A stretch of 37,574 nt of DNA from Peptoniphilus timonensis JC401. GTDB lineage: Bacteria; Bacillota; Clostridia; Tissierellales; Peptoniphilaceae. Shown here piece by piece: positions 24,620 through 33,690 of this stretch. The stretch's first letter is position 1; the number at the start of each line of letters is the position of its first letter. The notes beneath the pieces are model-generated. The model ran no database searches. It saw only the letters and a list, made by a program, of their open reading frames with translations, and had not been told where the DNA came from. Made by a program: the position numbers and the translations under genes. The stretch lies in NCBI RefSeq assembly GCF_000312025.1, contig NZ_HE978593.1, positions 610,327-647,900 on the forward strand, written 5' to 3'.

Positions 24620-27176
24620 TTATTTCTTATATTGACTATTAAATTCTCTAAGTCTTGGAACAAATTCCTTATAAAAAGCATCGCTCATTTCTGCGTGGAA
24701 TTTTGCAATTTTTTCCCAATTTGACTTGTCTTTTGAGTTGATATTTTCTATTGCTACTTCAATAGTTGACATTTTATTATCATCTAACCTATTCCAATAA
24801 AGTTTTAAACCTAAACTATTTTCTATGTTTTCTTTATATTTATATAGATAATCGAAAGCAGCCTTATTTGTTTCCTTGTCAGGCTTATTTAATGTCATCA
24901 AAACTTTGGCAGATTTCATATAAAAATAGCAAGAAATATAAAATCCACTAGTCCCAGTAGTTCCTGCGATCCATGAACTCTTTGATCTAGTAACATTCTT
25001 AAAAGTTTCATTATCAATGTTTTCTTCTTTTATTATAGGAATAGCATAGTTCCAATATTCTTCTCTTATATTTTCTGGAGTCCTATCAAAATTATCAGAG
25101 TCTTCAAAATAAAAAATTAAATTATCAGGATCTTCTTCATATAATTCAAAAAGTTTACTTAATATTTTAATTTTTGTATTTGTATTATTATTTGTAGAAA
25201 CAAAAATATTCTCATCTATTTTTTCAAAACTTCGCAAGTCATTAGAAGTTGTAAAGAAATTAAGTCCTAATACATCCCTTGGCTCTTCTCTGACTAAATT
25301 AATTAATTGAGACTTATCTTCTTCATGCAAGATTTTTTATTATAAAAGTAAAGGTTTCTGACCAGTTTCTAAAAGAGGACTCTTCTCCCCTAAAATTAAT
25401 CTTTAAAATTCTCTTTCCCTTCAAGTCGTAATTATCATCAGCTAAAGAAATATATTCTACATCTTCTCTTTGTAATTCAAAATTTGTGCTAGGATACTTC
25501 CAAATCTCATAAACCGCTAAGTCTAGTAAGTCCCTATGCCTTTTTTCAATTTCATCTTCTCCCCAAGAATCTAATAATGCCAAGTCTTGATTCATCCTAA
25601 TTCCACTCTTCTTAAAGCCATGCTTTCCATCCCTCTTTTTCTCAAAAGAAGAATTGCCCATGTCGGAATTGTAACCCGTAATAGTTAGGTTACCCAGCTT
25701 GTGAATCCATTTTTCATGAATTTCTTCTGCATTATCTCCTAATTCTTCAAACCAATCATCATTTAATTTTTGCGGCATAATGTGTTCAATGCTATAAGTC
25801 CCATCATCTAAGTGGTTGTATATGTCCTTAGTCTCAACAGTATTATAGTTTTCAATCTTATTAAAAAGATAATTTTTAAATCTGCCACGCATTAAATAAA
25901 TTTCCTTATTATTTAAATTTTCATAAAATTCCTCATCTTTAGGAAATCTACCAGAATCTCTCTTATTAATTAAGTTATATTTTAATTTTTCAACATAATT
26001 TTCAGTAGTGCCATCATACCTGACAATATCTTTATTTAAATTGAGAAAAATTTTGCTTAAAGCATTACTTGCAACTCCACAAATATTTCTTCTAAATAAA
26101 TAGATTTCAATAGTATTAAAAATTCCAATTAAATCATCAAGACTTAGCATGCTTTCATCATTTAGGCTAAAAACTTCCATAAAGAAAGGTTCTGTTACAC
26201 TTATTTCCATCTTCTTTAAATTAAACATGGAAGAATCTAGGTCTTTATTTTTAAATCCGCTTTCACCATCAAGTAGCTTTTTATAGAATTTAGAGTATTT
26301 AAGCATATCTTCTAGCAAAGTTTCCAAAGATTCGCTATGTCTATTTACATAATCTTTAAACTCAAAATAAACTTTAGACATAGTAGGCATTGAAAAAGTT
26401 TTAATACTCAAGTAATTTCTTACAAAATTATCTATTCTTTTATTAGTAAAATCTTCAATTTTTATCCAATACTTTTCAAAATATTTATTTTGCTTTTCTA
26501 AAGGCAGATTCATGAGAATAAAATTCCTTATCTTATCTCCTTCACTAAGAGCAAGACCCGTTGAATTTAAACTTTCAAATATAAGTTGAGCATCGTCGCC
26601 CTTCTCTAAAGTAATAGAGATAACTTGAAGTCTTTGGATAGCAGAATAAATTTCATCGATAATATGAGAATCCTTTTTTAATCTCTCATAAAAATATTTA
26701 TAATTAATAGTCAAATTTGAATTTTCTATATACTCGTCTTCTTCTCCAAAAATTAAATAATGAAGTGCCTTCCTATCTCTCTTAACAGGGATTAATTTTA
26801 CTTTGTCATCTTCCTTAGCCCACTTGGAAATAATAAATCTTTCCATTATTTGCTCATTTAAATCCACTTCATTAGAATAAGCTTCGCCTTTCTCAACTAA
26901 CTTGGCAATAGCTAAAAGAAGAAGAGTAACAGTAGTAAGCCTCTGTTGCCCATCAATAATATGATATTCAGTAATAGACCCAGCACCCACAACATCAGAA
27001 ACAATACTTCCAAAAAAGTGATTACCTTCCTTATCTTTTGCGAGTCTTAATAAATCATTATAAAGTTGTTTGCAGTTTTCAATCTTCCAATCATATCTTC
27101 TTTGGTAAACAGGAATAATATACCTGTGGTTAGGACCCTCCATGTAAGAATATAATTGGATTCCATCGCCCTTCAT
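24620..27176 (-). CDS. GmrSD-like DUF262/DUF1524 nuclease with DUF4268 tail (one-base frameshift at 25333-25338)
   Basis: The N-terminal DUF262 (ParB-like) domain has IPVYQRRYDW and DGQQRLTT. DUF1524 (HNH) follows with EHIMPQ and HKLGNLTITGYN. The tail, from about 25330 down, looks like DUF4268 (RSKSSWIAG, then FHAEMSDAFYKEFVPRLREF). Single-chain proteins of this kind belong to the GmrSD type IV restriction family, which uses NTP to cut modified phage DNA. The frame stops at 25323 and resumes from a TTG. Removing one T (minus A) from T6 25333-25338 gives FIIKILHEEDKSQL and an 851-residue protein. The frameshift falls inside one domain, so error or inactivation is likelier than two genes. GGAGG precedes the ATG. 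Confidence 0.85.
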
Positions 27177-27355: not shown

Positions 27356-27456
27356 AAATATATATTTGTTTTGTGATTTTTTATAATTTAATGATTTTAA
27401 TTTATATAGTTAAATTATTTTTATATAAAATTTTGGTAATTTCCTCGAGGTGGCTT

Positions 27457-28869
27457 ATGACTTTTATTGATTATTCTTTGGAACCTAAATCTGATATTGC
27501 TTTTGTGGACATCAAGTCTTTTTATGCAAGTGTTGAGTGTGTCACGAGAAATCTCGATCCTCTAACTACTAGTCTTTGTGTTATGAGTAGGTCTAGCAAT
27601 TCTAAGGGTCTTATTCTTGCAAGCTCTCCTCTTTTCAAGAAGATTTTTGGAAAAAGTAATGTGGGAAGGGCAGGTGAGCTTCCCTTTGACATCGAAACTA
27701 GAAAGTTTAGCTTTGAAAAGGCCAGGAGACAAAATATTGAGATTACTAAGGATTATATCGATTTTATTGAGATGTGGGCGAAAAATACTCTTATTGTCCC
27801 TCCAAGGATGGCTCTTTATATTGAAGAAAATTTAAAAATTCAAAAAGTTTTTCAAAATTATGCTCCTAGAGAAGATATCCTTCCCTACTCTATTGATGAG
27901 GGCTTTATTGATTTAACAAAGAGTTTAAATTATTTTGTTCCTGATAAAAATATTTCAAGCCGTGACAAGTTGGACCTAGTTTCTTCAATGATTCAAAAAG
28001 ATATTTGGGAAACAACTGGTCTATATTCCACTGTTGGCATGAGCAATTCTAATCCCCTTCTTGCAAAGCTTGCCCTTGATAATGAGGCTAAAAAAACACG
28101 GACTATGCGTGCAAATTGGTCCTATGAAGATGTGGAATCAAAACTTTGGGCTATTGATGATTTAAGTGATTTTTGGGGAATTGGTTCTAGATTGAAAAAA
28201 AGACTCAACTCTATGTCAATTTATACTGCTCGCGATCTTGCTAATTATGATCCTGATATTCTTAAAAAAGTTTTTGGTGTCATGGGACTTCAACTTTGGT
28301 TTCACGCAAATGGTGTTGATGAGTCCAAGTTATCAAAACCTTATAAACCCAAGTCAAAAGGTCTTGGAAATTCTCAAGTTCTTCCTCGCGACTACGAAAA
28401 TCAAGATGAAATTGAAATTGTCCTTTCTGAAATCGCTGAGCAAGTGGCTATTAGAATTAGAAGGCTAAAGAAAAAGGCTTCTGTCATTTCTATATATGTT
28501 GGTTTTTCTTACACTGAAAATAAGAAGTCTATTCATGCAAAGAGAACTATTAGACCAAGTCAAGCTACTAGGGTTTTGCAAATGGAAGTGCTAAAGCTTT
28601 TTAGGGAAAGATATGATGGGGGTTCTGTGAGAAATCTTGGGGTAACTTATGATAATTTAGTGGATGAATCTTCTACTATTTTTGATTTTTTTGATGATGT
28701 AGAGGCTATTGAAAGGGAAGAAAATCTTGATAGTGCAATTGATGAAATTCGTGACAGATTTGGTTTTACTTCTATTCAAAAGGCTACATCTCTTGTTGAA
28801 GGTTCGAGAGTTATTGAGAGAAGCAAGTTAATTGGTGGTCACTGTGGTGGCATGGATGGTGTTAAATAG
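27457..28869 (+). CDS. Y-family DNA polymerase (UmuC/UvrX-like)
   Basis: This translesion polymerase copies damaged DNA with low fidelity. Catalytic motifs are VDIKSFYASVEC (metal Asp) and YSIDEGFIDLT (metal Asp/Glu). A helix-hairpin-helix thumb (DFWGIGSRLKKRLNSM) and a little-finger domain with TIRPSQATR follow. Start 27457 is chosen for the GAGGTGG three bases before it; the ATG at 27373 has none. The protein is 470 residues. The UmuC-like sequence, the YolD neighbour and the third small gene match the mobile or accessory Firmicute SOS cassettes (UvrX-YolD), not chromosomal DinB. The dense upstream AT tract may carry SOS control. Confidence 0.93.
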   Translation: MTFIDYSLEPKSDIAFVDIKSFYASVECVTRNLDPLTTSLCVMSRSSNSKGLILASSPLFKKIFGKSNVGRAGELPFDIETRKFSFEKARRQNIEITKDYIDFIEMWAKNTLIVPPRMALYIEENLKIQKVFQNYAPREDILPYSIDEGFIDLTKSLNYFVPDKNISSRDKLDLVSSMIQKDIWETTGLYSTVGMSNSNPLLAKLALDNEAKKTRTMRANWSYEDVESKLWAIDDLSDFWGIGSRLKKRLNSMSIYTARDLANYDPDILKKVFGVMGLQLWFHANGVDESKLSKPYKPKSKGLGNSQVLPRDYENQDEIEIVLSEIAEQVAIRIRRLKKKASVISIYVGFSYTENKKSIHAKRTIRPSQATRVLQMEVLKLFRERYDGGSVRNLGVTYDNLVDESSTIFDFFDDVEAIEREENLDSAIDEIRDRFGFTSIQKATSLVEGSRVIERSKLIGGHCGGMDGVK

Positions 28870-29231: not shown

Positions 29232-29575
29232 TGTGTTTAGAAAGAAACTCTCTTCAGTTTGATTATTTTTCTATTAATTACAAAATTTTCGAGAATGATT
29301 TCTATAAGTTCTCAAATTTAAATGTTCCTTTAATATTTTTAACTTCTGATATTCTCCAACACATGTCCTCCACTGGTCACAATTATTTTAGATTAAATTC
29401 AAAGAATGCAGCAGATAAAAAGAACCACTATTTTATTTTTAATAAAGTTTATATTAATAATAATTTTATTATTCAATTTAAATATTTGGGACATATTTGT
29501 CCTATTGATTTTCATAAAGAATTTTTCATTGAAAACAAGATAAATTATTGCAAAAAAAGAAGCTACATCAAATGA
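29231..29575 (+). CDS. Small conserved protein of the polymerase cassette (DUF5960-like?)
   Basis: The 114-residue protein begins with RNSLQFDYFSINYKIFENDF and continues VPLIFLTSDILQHMSSTG and NYFRLNSKNAADKKNHYF. This resembles a small streptococcal family found beside umuC-like genes, which I recall as DUF5960 but cannot verify. There is no membrane segment. GGAGG lies within the end of the YolD gene. Translation starts at its overlapping ATG and ends inside the following terminator hairpin. It would be a third subunit or regulator of the translesion cassette. Confidence 0.7.
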   Translation: MCLERNSLQFDYFSINYKIFENDFYKFSNLNVPLIFLTSDILQHMSSTGHNYFRLNSKNAADKKNHYFIFNKVYINNNFIIQFKYLGHICPIDFHKEFFIENKINYCKKRSYIK

Positions 29576-29600
29576 TATAGCTTCTTTAAATATTTTAATA
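29556..29600. terminator. Bidirectional terminator between the polymerase cassette and the flavodiiron operon
   Basis: AAAGAAGCTA/TAGCTTCTTT stem with inner ATC/GAT pairing. T-rich sequence follows on the plus strand (TTTAAATATTTTAAT), and an A-run on the plus strand before it gives T7 on the minus strand. Confidence 0.85.
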
Positions 29601-29609
29601 AAAAGTTTA

Positions 29610-30851
29610 TTATTTATCAGCTGATTTTGCTTTAACTTCTCTAATCTTAGCCATTGATTCGATAATAGAATCTGCAAGAGCTTCCATATCGTTTTCGTTA
29701 GCCTTGTTAAGAGCTGAGTTAAGTGTAACTCTTTCTGGAAGTACGTCGAACATCTTAAGATTTTCGTCAATATATTCTTCAATCTTATCGCCAACTGTAC
29801 AAGCCCAAGTACCATTTTCAATGATACCAACAGTTCTGTTTTGAACGTTAAGAGCTTCAAGGTCCATTAAGAAGTTTTTCATTACAGGGTAAATACCTAA
29901 GTTGTAAGTTACAGATGCAATTACAATGTGAGAGTATTTAAATGTGTCTGCAATTAGGTAAGACATGTGAGTGTTACTTACATCGTGAACTACTACATTA
30001 GTCATTCCCTTATCACAAAGTCTTGATGCAAGAGCTTGTGCAGCACGTTCTGTATTTCCATACATTGATGCATAAACAATCATTACGCCTTCTTCTTCTG
30101 GTTCATATCTTGACCATTTGTCATATTTTTCGATGAACCATCCTAGGTTTTCTCTCCAAACTGGTCCGTGAAGTGGACAGATGTATTTAATATCTACAGT
30201 TGCAGCTTTTTTAAGAACATCTTGTACGAATGGACCATATTTTCCTACGATATTTGTTAAATATCTTCTTGCTGGGTCAAGATAATCTCTTTCGAAGTTA
30301 ACTTCGTCAGCAAATAGTTTACCATCAAGTGTACCGAATGTACCAAAAGCGTCAGCTGCGAATAGTACTCCGTCAGTTGTATCGAAACTTACAAGAACTT
30401 CTGGCCAGTGAACCATAGGTGCTTCTAAGAAAATGAATTCGTGCTTACCAAAGGAGATAGTGTCTCCTTCAGCTACAACAATTGATTGTTCGTCGTCTAC
30501 ATGGAAACCATATTGACGCATAAATTCAAAGCCTTGTTCACTTGCTATAACTTTTACATCTGGGTATCTTAAAACAATTTCATCAATAGCAGCAGCGTGG
30601 TCTGGTTCTAAGTGGTGAATTACTAGATAATCTAGGTCTTCTCCATCAAGAACTTCAGATATATTTTCTAAATAATCTTTTACAATTGACCAGTCAACTG
30701 TATCAAATAGTACGTTTTTTTCATCTTTTAGTAAATATGAATTATATGTTACTCCTTCTGGAATAGGAAAAATATTTTCAAATAATTCTAGTCTATGATC
30801 ATTTCCACCAACATAGTAAAGATCATCTGTGACTTTTCTAACAGTATACAT
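29610..30851 (-). CDS. fprA: FprA-type flavodiiron protein (O2/NO reductase)
   Basis: Flavodiiron proteins reduce O2 to water or NO to N2O in anaerobes, usually with electrons from rubredoxin. The 413 residues have a metallo-beta-lactamase-like domain with the full di-iron set (His80, Glu82, Asp84, His85 in HHLEPDHAA; His148; Asp167; His228). A flavodoxin domain beginning IVYASMYGNTERAA (about residue 258) follows. It has no rubredoxin of its own. It follows the acyl-CoA dehydrogenase fusion by 11 bases with AAGGAGG, and that fusion ends in a rubredoxin, which supplies the expected donor. Confidence 0.95.
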   Translation of the reverse strand: MYTVRKVTDDLYYVGGNDHRLELFENIFPIPEGVTYNSYLLKDEKNVLFDTVDWSIVKDYLENISEVLDGEDLDYLVIHHLEPDHAAAIDEIVLRYPDVKVIASEQGFEFMRQYGFHVDDEQSIVVAEGDTISFGKHEFIFLEAPMVHWPEVLVSFDTTDGVLFAADAFGTFGTLDGKLFADEVNFERDYLDPARRYLTNIVGKYGPFVQDVLKKAATVDIKYICPLHGPVWRENLGWFIEKYDKWSRYEPEEEGVMIVYASMYGNTERAAQALASRLCDKGMTNVVVHDVSNTHMSYLIADTFKYSHIVIASVTYNLGIYPVMKNFLMDLEALNVQNRTVGIIENGTWACTVGDKIEEYIDENLKMFDVLPERVTLNSALNKANENDMEALADSIIESMAKIREVKAKSADK

Positions 30852-30862
30852 TATATCCTCCT

Positions 30863-32800
30863 TTATTTTCTATCAGCTGGGAAATCAGCTTCAATAAAGT
30901 TTTGCTTTTCTTCTTGACATTCTGGGCATGTCCAATCATCTGGTAGTCTATCAAAATCTGTACCAGGATCGATTTCGCCTTCTGGATCTCCGAAGTTTGG
31001 ATCATATTCATATCCACAGCCTGGGCATACCATTACTTTGTAGTTAGGAGCTAATTTTCTAGGTTTAGATCTTCTAACTTTCTTCATTGGAGGTGCTGGT
31101 TCTTTTTCACCAGTTCCAAGTGCTTCTGCAAGAAGTGGCATAATTTCGAACATATCTCCAACTATACCATAGTCACAGTTCTTAAATATAGGAGCTCCAG
31201 CATTTTTGTTAATTGCAACAATTGTTGATGCATTTTTAATACCCTTTAAGTGTTGGCTTGCTCCAGAAATACCACATGCTATATATAGGTTACCATTGAA
31301 TTTTTGTCCTGACATACCTACATATCTTTCAAGTGGTACAAGTTTTAATGTTTCTGCAACTGGTCTTGATGAACCTAGTGCAGCACCAGCAGCGTGTGCA
31401 AGTTCTCTTGCCATGTCCATATTTTCTTCTCCGCCGATTCCCTTACCAACTGAAACAACTCTTTCAGCATCGTAAACAGGAGTATCAATATCAATTCCTA
31501 CAGAGAAGTCATATCCATCTTTCTTTAAGTTTTTAACTAATATATCAACAGCTTCTTCAGCTGTATCTGCTTTTATTATTTCTCTTTTTCTGTCTCCAGT
31601 GATAGGACCAGCTTTTTTATCTATAATAGCTGCTCTACCTTTTTTCTTAGGAGCTTTACCAATAAGGTGACTTGCAACTACAACTCTTTGGATTTCAGAA
31701 GTACCTTCATAGATAGTAGTGATCTTAGCATCTCTGAAGAATCTTTCTACATCCATTCCCTTTAGATATCCATTACCACCGTGGATTTGAAGAGCTTCGT
31801 TAACAACCCACATAGCAACTTCAGATGCAACTGTTTTTGCCATTGCAGCTTCCATTGAGTAGTTTTCGTGATTTTGTTTCATTTCAGCAGCTGAATAAAC
31901 CATAAGTCTTGCAGCTCTGATTTTAGTAGCCATATCTGCAATCTTGAAAGCAACAGCTTGTTGTTGTGCTATTGGTCTTCCAAATTGTACTCTTTCTTTT
32001 GCATAAGCAAGTGCAGCTTCATAAGCGCCTTGTGCAATACCTAGAGCTTGAGATGCAATACCAATTCTACCACCATCAAGTGTTTGCATTGCAATTCTAA
32101 ATCCTTGACCTTCTTTACCAAGTAAGTTTTCCTTTGGAACCTTAACATTGTTAAATTGAAGTTCGGCAGTAGTTGAAGATCTAATACCTAATTTGTCATA
32201 GTGATCTCCAAAAGTGAATCCTTCCCATCCTTTTTCTACTATGAAAGCAGAAATTCCGTGAGTACCGATTCCTGGTGTAGTAACTGCATAAACTACATAA
32301 GTGTCAGCAGCTGGAGCGTTAGTAATAAAAATCTTGTTACCATTTAAGATGTAGTAATCTCCATCAAGAACAGCAGTAGTTTCTGTACCACCTGCATCAG
32401 AACCAGCGTTAGGTTCAGTTAATCCAAAAGCACCAAGTTTTTTACCTTGAGCAAGAGGTTTTAAATATTTTTCCTTTTGTTCCTTTGTACCGAAAGCTTG
32501 AATTGGATAAGATCCTAATGAAGTGTGAGCTGATAATACAACACCAACACCTGCATCTACTCTTGATAATTCTTCAACAGCGATTGCGTAAGAAATAACA
32601 TCCTTACCTGCTCCGCCTTCTTCTTCAGGGTATGGAAGTCCCATCCAACCGTTTTCGCCAATCTTTTTAATTATTTCTTCTGGAAATTCATTGTTTTGAT
32701 CAAGTCCAAAAGATAATGGCTTGATTTCTGCTTCTGCAAACTCTCTGATAGCCTTACGAAGGGCTTCATGTTCGTCAGTTGTCTTATACATATTTGACAT
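30863..32800 (-). CDS. Acyl-CoA dehydrogenase - ETF-alpha FAD domain - rubredoxin fusion
   Basis: The 645-residue protein has three parts. Residues 1-382 are an acyl-CoA dehydrogenase of short-chain type (FGLTEPNAGSDAGG, QIHGGNGY, catalytic Glu365 in IYEGTSEIQ). Residues about 398-565 are the C-terminal FAD domain of ETF-alpha (RELAHAAGAALGSSRPVAE, LYIACGISGASQHL, CDYGIVGDMFEI), without ETF-alpha domain I. Residues 587-645 are a rubredoxin with Cys592/Cys595 and Cys625/Cys628. Electrons could pass from the acyl-CoA through two FADs to rubredoxin and then to the flavodiiron protein encoded next. No ETF-beta is nearby. A strong ribosome-binding site and a clear promoter precede it. Confidence 0.95.
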   Translation of the reverse strand: MSNMYKTTDEHEALRKAIREFAEAEIKPLSFGLDQNNEFPEEIIKKIGENGWMGLPYPEEEGGAGKDVISYAIAVEELSRVDAGVGVVLSAHTSLGSYPIQAFGTKEQKEKYLKPLAQGKKLGAFGLTEPNAGSDAGGTETTAVLDGDYYILNGNKIFITNAPAADTYVVYAVTTPGIGTHGISAFIVEKGWEGFTFGDHYDKLGIRSSTTAELQFNNVKVPKENLLGKEGQGFRIAMQTLDGGRIGIASQALGIAQGAYEAALAYAKERVQFGRPIAQQQAVAFKIADMATKIRAARLMVYSAAEMKQNHENYSMEAAMAKTVASEVAMWVVNEALQIHGGNGYLKGMDVERFFRDAKITTIYEGTSEIQRVVVASHLIGKAPKKKGRAAIIDKKAGPITGDRKREIIKADTAEEAVDILVKNLKKDGYDFSVGIDIDTPVYDAERVVSVGKGIGGEENMDMARELAHAAGAALGSSRPVAETLKLVPLERYVGMSGQKFNGNLYIACGISGASQHLKGIKNASTIVAINKNAGAPIFKNCDYGIVGDMFEIMPLLAEALGTGEKEPAPPMKKVRRSKPRKLAPNYKVMVCPGCGYEYDPNFGDPEGEIDPGTDFDRLPDDWTCPECQEEKQNFIEADFPADRK

Positions 32801-32878
32801 ATTTTCCTCCTTTTAAGATTAAAGATAATTAAAGTAATTTATACTTTAATAGTTAAAAACAAAAGATACACCAAGATG

Positions 32879-32902
32879 GTATACAATAATTAAAGTATAC
32901 AA
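32879..32902. repeat. Direct repeat GTATACAA over the acyl-CoA dehydrogenase promoter
   Basis: Two copies of GTATACAA (32879-32886, 32895-32902) have a 16-base period. Each contains the palindrome GTATAC. They cover the -10 box and probable start site of the downstream operon, so a repressor site is plausible. They do not match the Rex consensus as I know it. Confidence 0.5.
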
Positions 32903-32922
32903 CAACTTCTTTAAAGTGTCAA
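32894..32922 (-). promoter_or_regulatory. Consensus promoter of the dehydrogenase-flavodiiron operon
   Basis: Minus strand: perfect TTGACA, 17 bases, TATACT. Transcription should start near 32887, giving a leader of about 87 bases. No plausible riboswitch is seen in that leader. Confidence 0.85.
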
Positions 32923-33038
32923 AACATTTTCACTAAATTTTGAATAAAAATTTAAAAGTTTTTAATTCAAATCTTTTCGTTTTCACTAGTATTCTTATAC
33001 CCCTTTTTATTAATTTTATACTCAATTTAATGTATTAA

Positions 33039-33066
33039 TTGAAAAATACTTTTTTTGTTGTAAAAT
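33039..33066 (+). promoter_or_regulatory. Promoter for nitroreductase-PTS_EIIC_2 unit
   Basis: TTGAAA, 16 bases, TAAAAT, about 40 bases ahead of the chosen start codon. Confidence 0.6.
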
Positions 33067-33107
33067 ATAAAGTTAACAAGAAGAAATTTATAGCAATTGG
33101 AGGAATT

Positions 33108-33690
33108 ATGGATTTAGAAAATTTATTAAAATGGAGAAGATCTTACAGAAAGTTTGACGAAAATAAACTACTTTCTCAAGAAGATATTGATGCTATTTTA
33201 AATTCTATAAAATATGCATCTTGTGCAAATAACAGACAGTATTTGAGATTTATCTCTGTTGAAAAAAGAGATAAAGTATTGGAAATTTTCAATAATAGCA
33301 AATGGGCAGCATCTCTAGCTAATGAAGCAGGTAGACCTAAAGAGGGAGAAAGACCTGTTTATTTTATTGCTGTTTTAAGTGATAATAGAAAAAAAATTAA
33401 GATTTGACGGTGTTGACCAGGGCCTTGTGATTTCAAACCTTACTCTTGCAGCAGCAGAAAGAGGCATAGGATCTTGTATAATTGGAAGTGTAAATGATAA
33501 TAAAATGCGAGAAATTTTATCTTATGATGAAAAATATACTTGTAATCTTGTAGTTGCTTTTGGATACCCAAAAATCAAATCTACTATAGAAGAAATTGAT
33601 ATTTCTCATGACCAATCATATCATCTTGACGACAAGGGGAATTATATTGTTCCCAAATATAAACTAGATGACATTTTAAGGAGAATCTAA
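33108..33690 (+). CDS. Nitroreductase-family FMN protein (one-base frameshift at 33389-33396)
   Basis: A small FMN-dependent nitroreductase-like protein of 193 residues after one base is removed. The start RRSYRKFDENK is the usual FMN phosphate-binding beginning (R-R-S-x-R), ANNRQYLRFI follows, and the second half has AAERGIGSCIIGSV. As read, the frame stops at 33407 after an A8 run; with seven A the sequence continues SDNRKKLRFDGVDQGLV. Start 33108 is preferred: GGAGG lies four bases ahead, and the upstream ATG 33039 falls inside the promoter. The substrate is unknown. The stop TAA overlaps the ATG of the next gene, so the two are translationally coupled. Confidence 0.88.

Follow-up and report, generated by a model that had tools for sequence, protein, structure and literature searches.

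What does an acyl-CoA dehydrogenase do when it is carried on one chain with an ETF-alpha-type FAD domain and a rubredoxin, and is the flavodiiron protein (FDP) encoded directly behind it the partner that receives its electrons? These questions are raised by two genes on the minus strand of the window (the whole stretch of 37,574 nucleotides analysed here, from Peptoniphilus timonensis JC401). The three-domain protein is referred to below as BCR, the name of its closest described counterpart. The features of the locus and of its downstream flank are as follows.

30863..32800, minus strand: BCR-type protein, acyl-CoA dehydrogenase + ETF-alpha FAD domain + rubredoxin (open reading frame, Pfam, invariant residues, 70% identity)
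29610..30851, minus strand: FDP, metallo-beta-lactamase-like ODP and flavodoxin domains only (open reading frame, Pfam, invariant residues, 61% identity)
30852..30862, minus strand: gap of 11 bases between the BCR and FDP genes (raw sequence, reading-frame coordinates)
32894..32922, minus strand: sigma-70-like promoter, TTGACA-17-TATACT (agrees with the consensus at 11 of 12 positions; roughly 95 bases ahead of the BCR gene)
25323-27176, minus strand: open reading frame of 617 aa
27373-28869, plus strand: open reading frame of 498 aa

The BCR gene is an open reading frame that occupies exactly 30863-32800, starts with ATG and encodes 645 aa. The Pfam domains above cut-off are Acyl-CoA_dh_N (8-120), Acyl-CoA_dh_M (124-219) and Acyl-CoA_dh_1 (231-379), followed by ETF_alpha (444-522) and Rubredoxin (590-635). 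This bears out the preliminary description, which had read three redox modules in one polypeptide and had pointed to Glu365 and four rubredoxin cysteines as retained: Glu365 (in an IYEGT motif) and Cys592, Cys595, Cys625 and Cys628 are conserved without exception in an alignment of 12 rows (the window protein plus 11 relatives), and we take the glutamate to be catalytic and the cysteines to be those of the rubredoxin. The best solved structure for the dehydrogenase part by sequence score is 5ol2 chain C (472 bits), presumably the C. difficile Bcd-Etf complex. BCR shares with clostridial Bcd-EtfAB the dehydrogenase domain and the FAD-binding domain of ETF-alpha, but it lacks both ETF-beta and domain I of ETF-alpha and carries a fused rubredoxin instead. 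PF01012 (the ETF family) is absent among the Pfam matches to the BCR chain and present in the host EtfA proteins (both of those scanned) and in EtfB. The combination expected of an electron-bifurcating ETF, ETF-beta plus ETF-alpha domain I with the FAD domain, is therefore not found in BCR, and flavin-based electron bifurcation is not expected of it, in agreement with the earlier judgement that bifurcation was unlikely. The identity of the substrate is less constrained: the best NCBIfam match is acryloyl-CoA reductase at 478/640 bits, below the cut-off of that equivalog, so that sequence does not fix the acyl-CoA, and BCR could act on a short acyl-CoA other than butyryl-CoA.

The FDP gene is the next gene after BCR on the same strand and encodes 413 aa with the Pfam domains ODP and Flavodoxin_1. 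Pfam finds neither a rubredoxin nor a reductase domain on this chain, and the FDP is of the simple (class A) type. Seven residues (H80, E82, D84, H85, H148, D167 and H228) are the same in all 14 aligned FDPs, one from the window and 13 from relatives; by analogy with the family, they are taken to form the putative diiron site. These results agree with the initial reading of the adjoining gene, 11 bases away, as a flavodiiron protein with a full diiron site and no electron donor of its own. The arrangement is operon-like: the gap of 11 bases holds an AGGAGG ribosome-binding-like motif ahead of the FDP start. The promoter listed above is the best of 11 sigma-70-like sites found in 29400-33100, a count that is not significant given a mean of 14.4 in shuffled sequences. 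The divergent gene upstream of BCR (33039-33690, plus strand) belongs to the nitroreductase family and is read in two overlapping frames. Beyond the FDP, the protein of 25323-27176 looks to us like a DUF262/DUF1524-type protein and that of 27373-28869 like a Y-family polymerase.

A pair of this kind has been described in Fusobacterium nucleatum. According to a recent review (PMC12288474, J Bacteriol 2025), BCR of that species joins butyryl-CoA dehydrogenase to the C-terminal part of EtfA and to rubredoxin, is bicistronic with an FDP (FN1423), and was assayed together with it as an alpha4beta4 complex that carries electrons from butyryl-CoA to O2; the review cites Bystrom and Wolthers 2024 as the primary paper. 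The two genes are FN1423-FN1424 (PMC12630350). The pairing had been put forward for the present locus as an open hypothesis, but the proposal of an untested new pathway was set aside because the pairing was already published and named BOOR (butyryl-CoA oxygen oxidoreductase). Sequence comparison clearly assigns the window pair to BOOR, whose chemistry is thus already known. The homology is close and nearly full length on both sides: BCR is identical to that of Fusobacterium vincentii at 448 of 636 positions (70%) and FDP at 249 of 405 (61%), the comparison having been made with the F. vincentii copies rather than with the assayed F. nucleatum FN1423/FN1424. In F. vincentii, as in the window, a three-domain protein lies beside a two-domain FDP in the same gene order. 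The record that supplied this pair (NZ_CP084075.1, L132) is 2.1 Mb long and filed as a plasmid, but is very probably a chromosome.

Some rubredoxin-linked flavodiiron proteins reduce NO, and in principle the main role of the same pair could be to reduce NO with electrons drawn from acyl-CoA. The names of the best matches lean that way: anaerobic nitric oxide reductase flavorubredoxin is the name both of the top solved structures for the FDP (183.6 bits) and of its best-scoring NCBIfam models, and the residues of the putative diiron site are complete. These models, however, match far below their cut-offs (214/635 and 202/711 bits) and rubredoxin:oxygen oxidoreductase (1e5d) is nearly as good (171.6 bits), so the match of the FDP says little on NO versus O2. 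The window pair has an FDP core and a rubredoxin donor in common with the NorV type of flavorubredoxin NO reductase, but its rubredoxin is fused to the dehydrogenase rather than to the FDP, and its proposed electron source is acyl-CoA; the two marks of the NorV type, a score above the family cut-off and a rubredoxin on the FDP chain, are both absent. The homologous F. nucleatum complex, moreover, is described in PMC12288474 as having no NO reductase activity. NO reduction as the main role was rejected on this account and is very improbable, and the branch of the first proposal that ended in "or NO" is disfavoured with it.

Very probably, then, the window pair works as a BOOR and uses acyl-CoA to drive the reduction of O2 through BCR and FDP. 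The dehydrogenase FAD of BCR would oxidise an acyl-CoA of short chain length, most probably butyryl-CoA (yielding crotonyl-CoA), and electrons would pass from this FAD to the ETF-alpha-type FAD and on to the rubredoxin iron. From there they would reach the FMN of the FDP and its diiron site, where O2 would be reduced to water. That the window proteins catalyse the same reaction, on a substrate of this chain length and with this exact order of electron hops, is argued by analogy. The route matches the account given of the homologous F. nucleatum pair in PMC12288474, and the preliminary description had traced it in the same order, from acyl-CoA through the two FADs and rubredoxin to the FDP and O2. 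That description called it oxygen scavenging; removal of O2 fits, but mere scavenging does not, the published view being that BOOR conserves energy because butyryl-CoA, a weak reductant, takes the place of NAD(P)H (PMC12288474).

If the two proteins work together, their genes would be expected to stay together, and the preliminary description had proposed adjacency across genomes as a check. Three samples were compared: 30 loci from 41 genomes of relatives, the best 80 loci of a pattern-based contig scan, and 10 loci from a search of 398 genomes of the phylum. Three-domain proteins are encoded at 23/30, 42/80 and 5/10 of these loci, respectively. An FDP gene follows within 250 bp downstream on the same strand in 68 of the 70 three-domain loci (23/23, 40/42 and 5/5, the set of 42 coming from the best 80), a result in favour of the pairing. 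The window is counted twice in this figure (as L001 and L120), so that distinct places with an FDP number 67 of 69; the partial loci L083 and L092 were excluded, and L024 and L075 mark one place (same contig number, coordinates C93:9013-10683). The control consisted of the 43 loci that encode no protein of either the two-domain or the three-domain type, and no FDP reading frame was found at any of these dehydrogenase-only loci (0 of 6, 33 and 4); the flanks covered were about 1.5 kb long for the first and third sets and as long as 4 kb for the second. Because both architecture and adjacency are conserved, chance is excluded as their explanation. By genome, a full-length three-domain match is present in 23 of the 41 genomes of relatives and in at least 5 of the 398 of the phylum (the host genome being counted in each), the latter a lower bound since no more than three candidates were scored for any one genome of that set.

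Departures from the usual layout were also seen. At L058 the FDP lies farther off, 250-1500 bp downstream of the three-domain gene, and in Allobaculum mucilyticum (L071:3995-5863) a full three-domain protein stands without an FDP in the surrounding 4 kb or so. At L042:2528-3739 a second FDP (39%), in divergent orientation, immediately precedes the BCR-FDP pair, and in the genome of L022 a dehydrogenase gene of 370 aa, 41% identical to the dehydrogenase part of BCR, follows the pair on the same strand (L038:799-1908).

Maximum-likelihood trees of 65 BCRs and 65 FDPs (63 loci, the window and F. vincentii) span Bacillota, Fusobacteriota, Spirochaetota (Brachyspira) and Synergistota. Left out were L071 (no FDP), L062 (truncated FDP), L070, L074 and L084 (frame-split or partial) and duplicates. 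Judged by eye, the two trees have many groups in common, with many inner forks weak. The three-domain gene, with an adjoining FDP, occurs in three Brachyspira records and one Synergistaceae bin (L062, L064, L079 and L048), the FDP of L062 being truncated by the contig end; the Synergistaceae contig may be mis-binned, since it measures only 7.9 kb and clusters with sequences from clostridia. Neither Brachyspira nor Synergistaceae is named in the available portions of the BOOR descriptions known here.

BOOR pairs of gut Clostridia, for example of Roseburia inulinivorans and Faecalibacterium prausnitzii, are reported in PMC13404960 to adjoin a gene for an Rrf2-family regulator. The gene pair is the same as in the window, but a BLAST search with one Rrf2 query found no such regulator gene within 700 bp upstream of the window pair. 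The same search found an Rrf2-like gene within 700 bp upstream at 15 of the 42 three-domain loci drawn from the best 80, at 1 of 23 from the relatives and at 2 of 5 from the phylum search.

The host genome supplies the metabolic setting (1.76 Mb were searched, an estimated 87% of the whole). In a comparison of ribosomal protein L3 with 8 genomes, the host came closest to an Anaerosalibacter genome (60%), with Anaerococcus marasmi at 53%, values that we consider too low for membership of one genus. The host has one BCR and, besides the FDP of the window, a second, unlinked FDP that is 37% identical to it. A Bcd-EtfB-EtfA operon (L031:8756-11739) and an RnfC over the family cut-off (G000:C1:175202-176497) are present. 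A cluster at L032:6333-14515 holds an FAD-linked dehydrogenase, an acyl-CoA dehydrogenase, an EtfB-EtfA pair, further Etf-like frames and LrgAB, and is alike in content to the lct cluster of F. nucleatum as set out in PMC12630350. Bcd-EtfBA, RnfC and an lct-like cluster are thus all found in the host. In F. nucleatum BOOR is described as working alongside bifurcating Bcd-Etf and Rnf, a network that the host may have as well; according to the review on that species, BOOR, Rnf and Bcd-Etf are encoded by many Firmicutes that are obligate anaerobes (PMC12288474). What differs from Fusobacterium is the host lineage, very probably a Tissierellia-type one within the Bacillota, in which BOOR activity is predicted. 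A match to the 3-hydroxyacyl-CoA dehydrogenase family gives little support for a butyrate pathway, because the same family matches in 14 of 14 control genomes. An apparent second BCR fusion, an open frame of 653 aa for the match at G000:C4:35452-36729, was rejected, since the list of reading frames shows a Bcd of 380 aa there, followed by EtfB and EtfA.

This inventory bears on another way of reading the fusion, in which BCR runs in reverse and reduces enoyl-CoA with electrons from reduced rubredoxin or a rubredoxin reductase, the adjoining FDP being supplied from elsewhere. A small free rubredoxin encoded in the host (L033:4997-5158) could feed an FDP, and Bcd enzymes related to BCR act as crotonyl-CoA reductases in fermentation (stated for Bcd-Etf in PMC12288474). 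Such a reductase would, however, duplicate a separate Bcd-EtfBA that the host already has, the conserved pairing described above (counted in part among the best 80 loci) speaks for a joint role, and the homologous complex is described as running from butyryl-CoA to O2 (PMC12288474). The reverse direction is very improbable, and oxidation of acyl-CoA coupled to O2 reduction is the reading kept here.

The FDP partner is not strictly co-inherited with BCR. In three loci of the same genus (L008, L009 and L010), BCR is 96-97% identical to that of the window, whereas FDP is only 74% identical. At the DNA level, identity in these loci is 88-98% in BCR, 67-78% in the N-terminal part of FDP and 81-86% in its C-terminal part; through the same bins it is 81-98% in L003, L005 and L011. 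The fall in L008-L010 comes at the boundary between the two genes. The three loci fall inside the window group in the BCR tree and outside it, with starred support, in the FDP tree. Recombination in the FDP gene of L008-L010 would be the simplest reading of this pattern, which faster divergence might also produce. Strict co-inheritance is thus contradicted by an FDP that has strongly diverged in three congeners in which BCR has not.

The rubredoxin, too, is variable. A rubredoxin-less form with two domains (dehydrogenase and ETF-alpha FAD) exists among the loci examined, at the following places.

L024/L034:9007-10689: two-domain protein, adjoining an FDP
L035:5467-7173: two-domain protein, no FDP reading frame in the locus
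L036:6795-8462: two-domain protein, no FDP reading frame in the locus
L037:3975-5663: two-domain protein, in tandem ahead of a full BCR-FDP pair
L081:3974-5677 (Anaerococcus marasmi): two-domain protein, near a divergent FDP (41%)
L085:3986-5572: two-domain protein, no FDP reading frame in the locus
L125:1501-3183: two-domain protein, no FDP reading frame in the locus

The genomes of L081 and L085 also have a full three-domain match elsewhere. In a tree of hand-picked rows (24 three-domain proteins, from whose ends 72 or 75 residues were cut, 7 two-domain proteins and 7 Bcd), the two-domain form is not one clade: there are 6 label changes, at least 4 of them forced by starred branches, and two rows are long branches. 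Rubredoxin has therefore probably been lost or gained more than once. Tentatively, and with some reserve, the BCR-FDP system may be modular: the diiron part of FDP would have been swapped by recombination in the three congeners with BCR nearly unchanged, rubredoxin-less BCRs stand beside an FDP elsewhere, and the hand-over of electrons would then be independent of tight co-evolution and might bypass the fused rubredoxin in some lineages.

BOOR is a recently described way for anaerobes to gain energetically from exposure to O2, and the window pair would extend it, with no claim to a first report, to another host lineage. Comparison of genomes shows that the two genes stay together as a unit across Bacillota and Fusobacteriota, in Brachyspira and in one Synergistaceae bin. 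The diverged FDPs and the rubredoxin-less variants within this range offer natural test cases for how rubredoxin docks to flavodiiron proteins.
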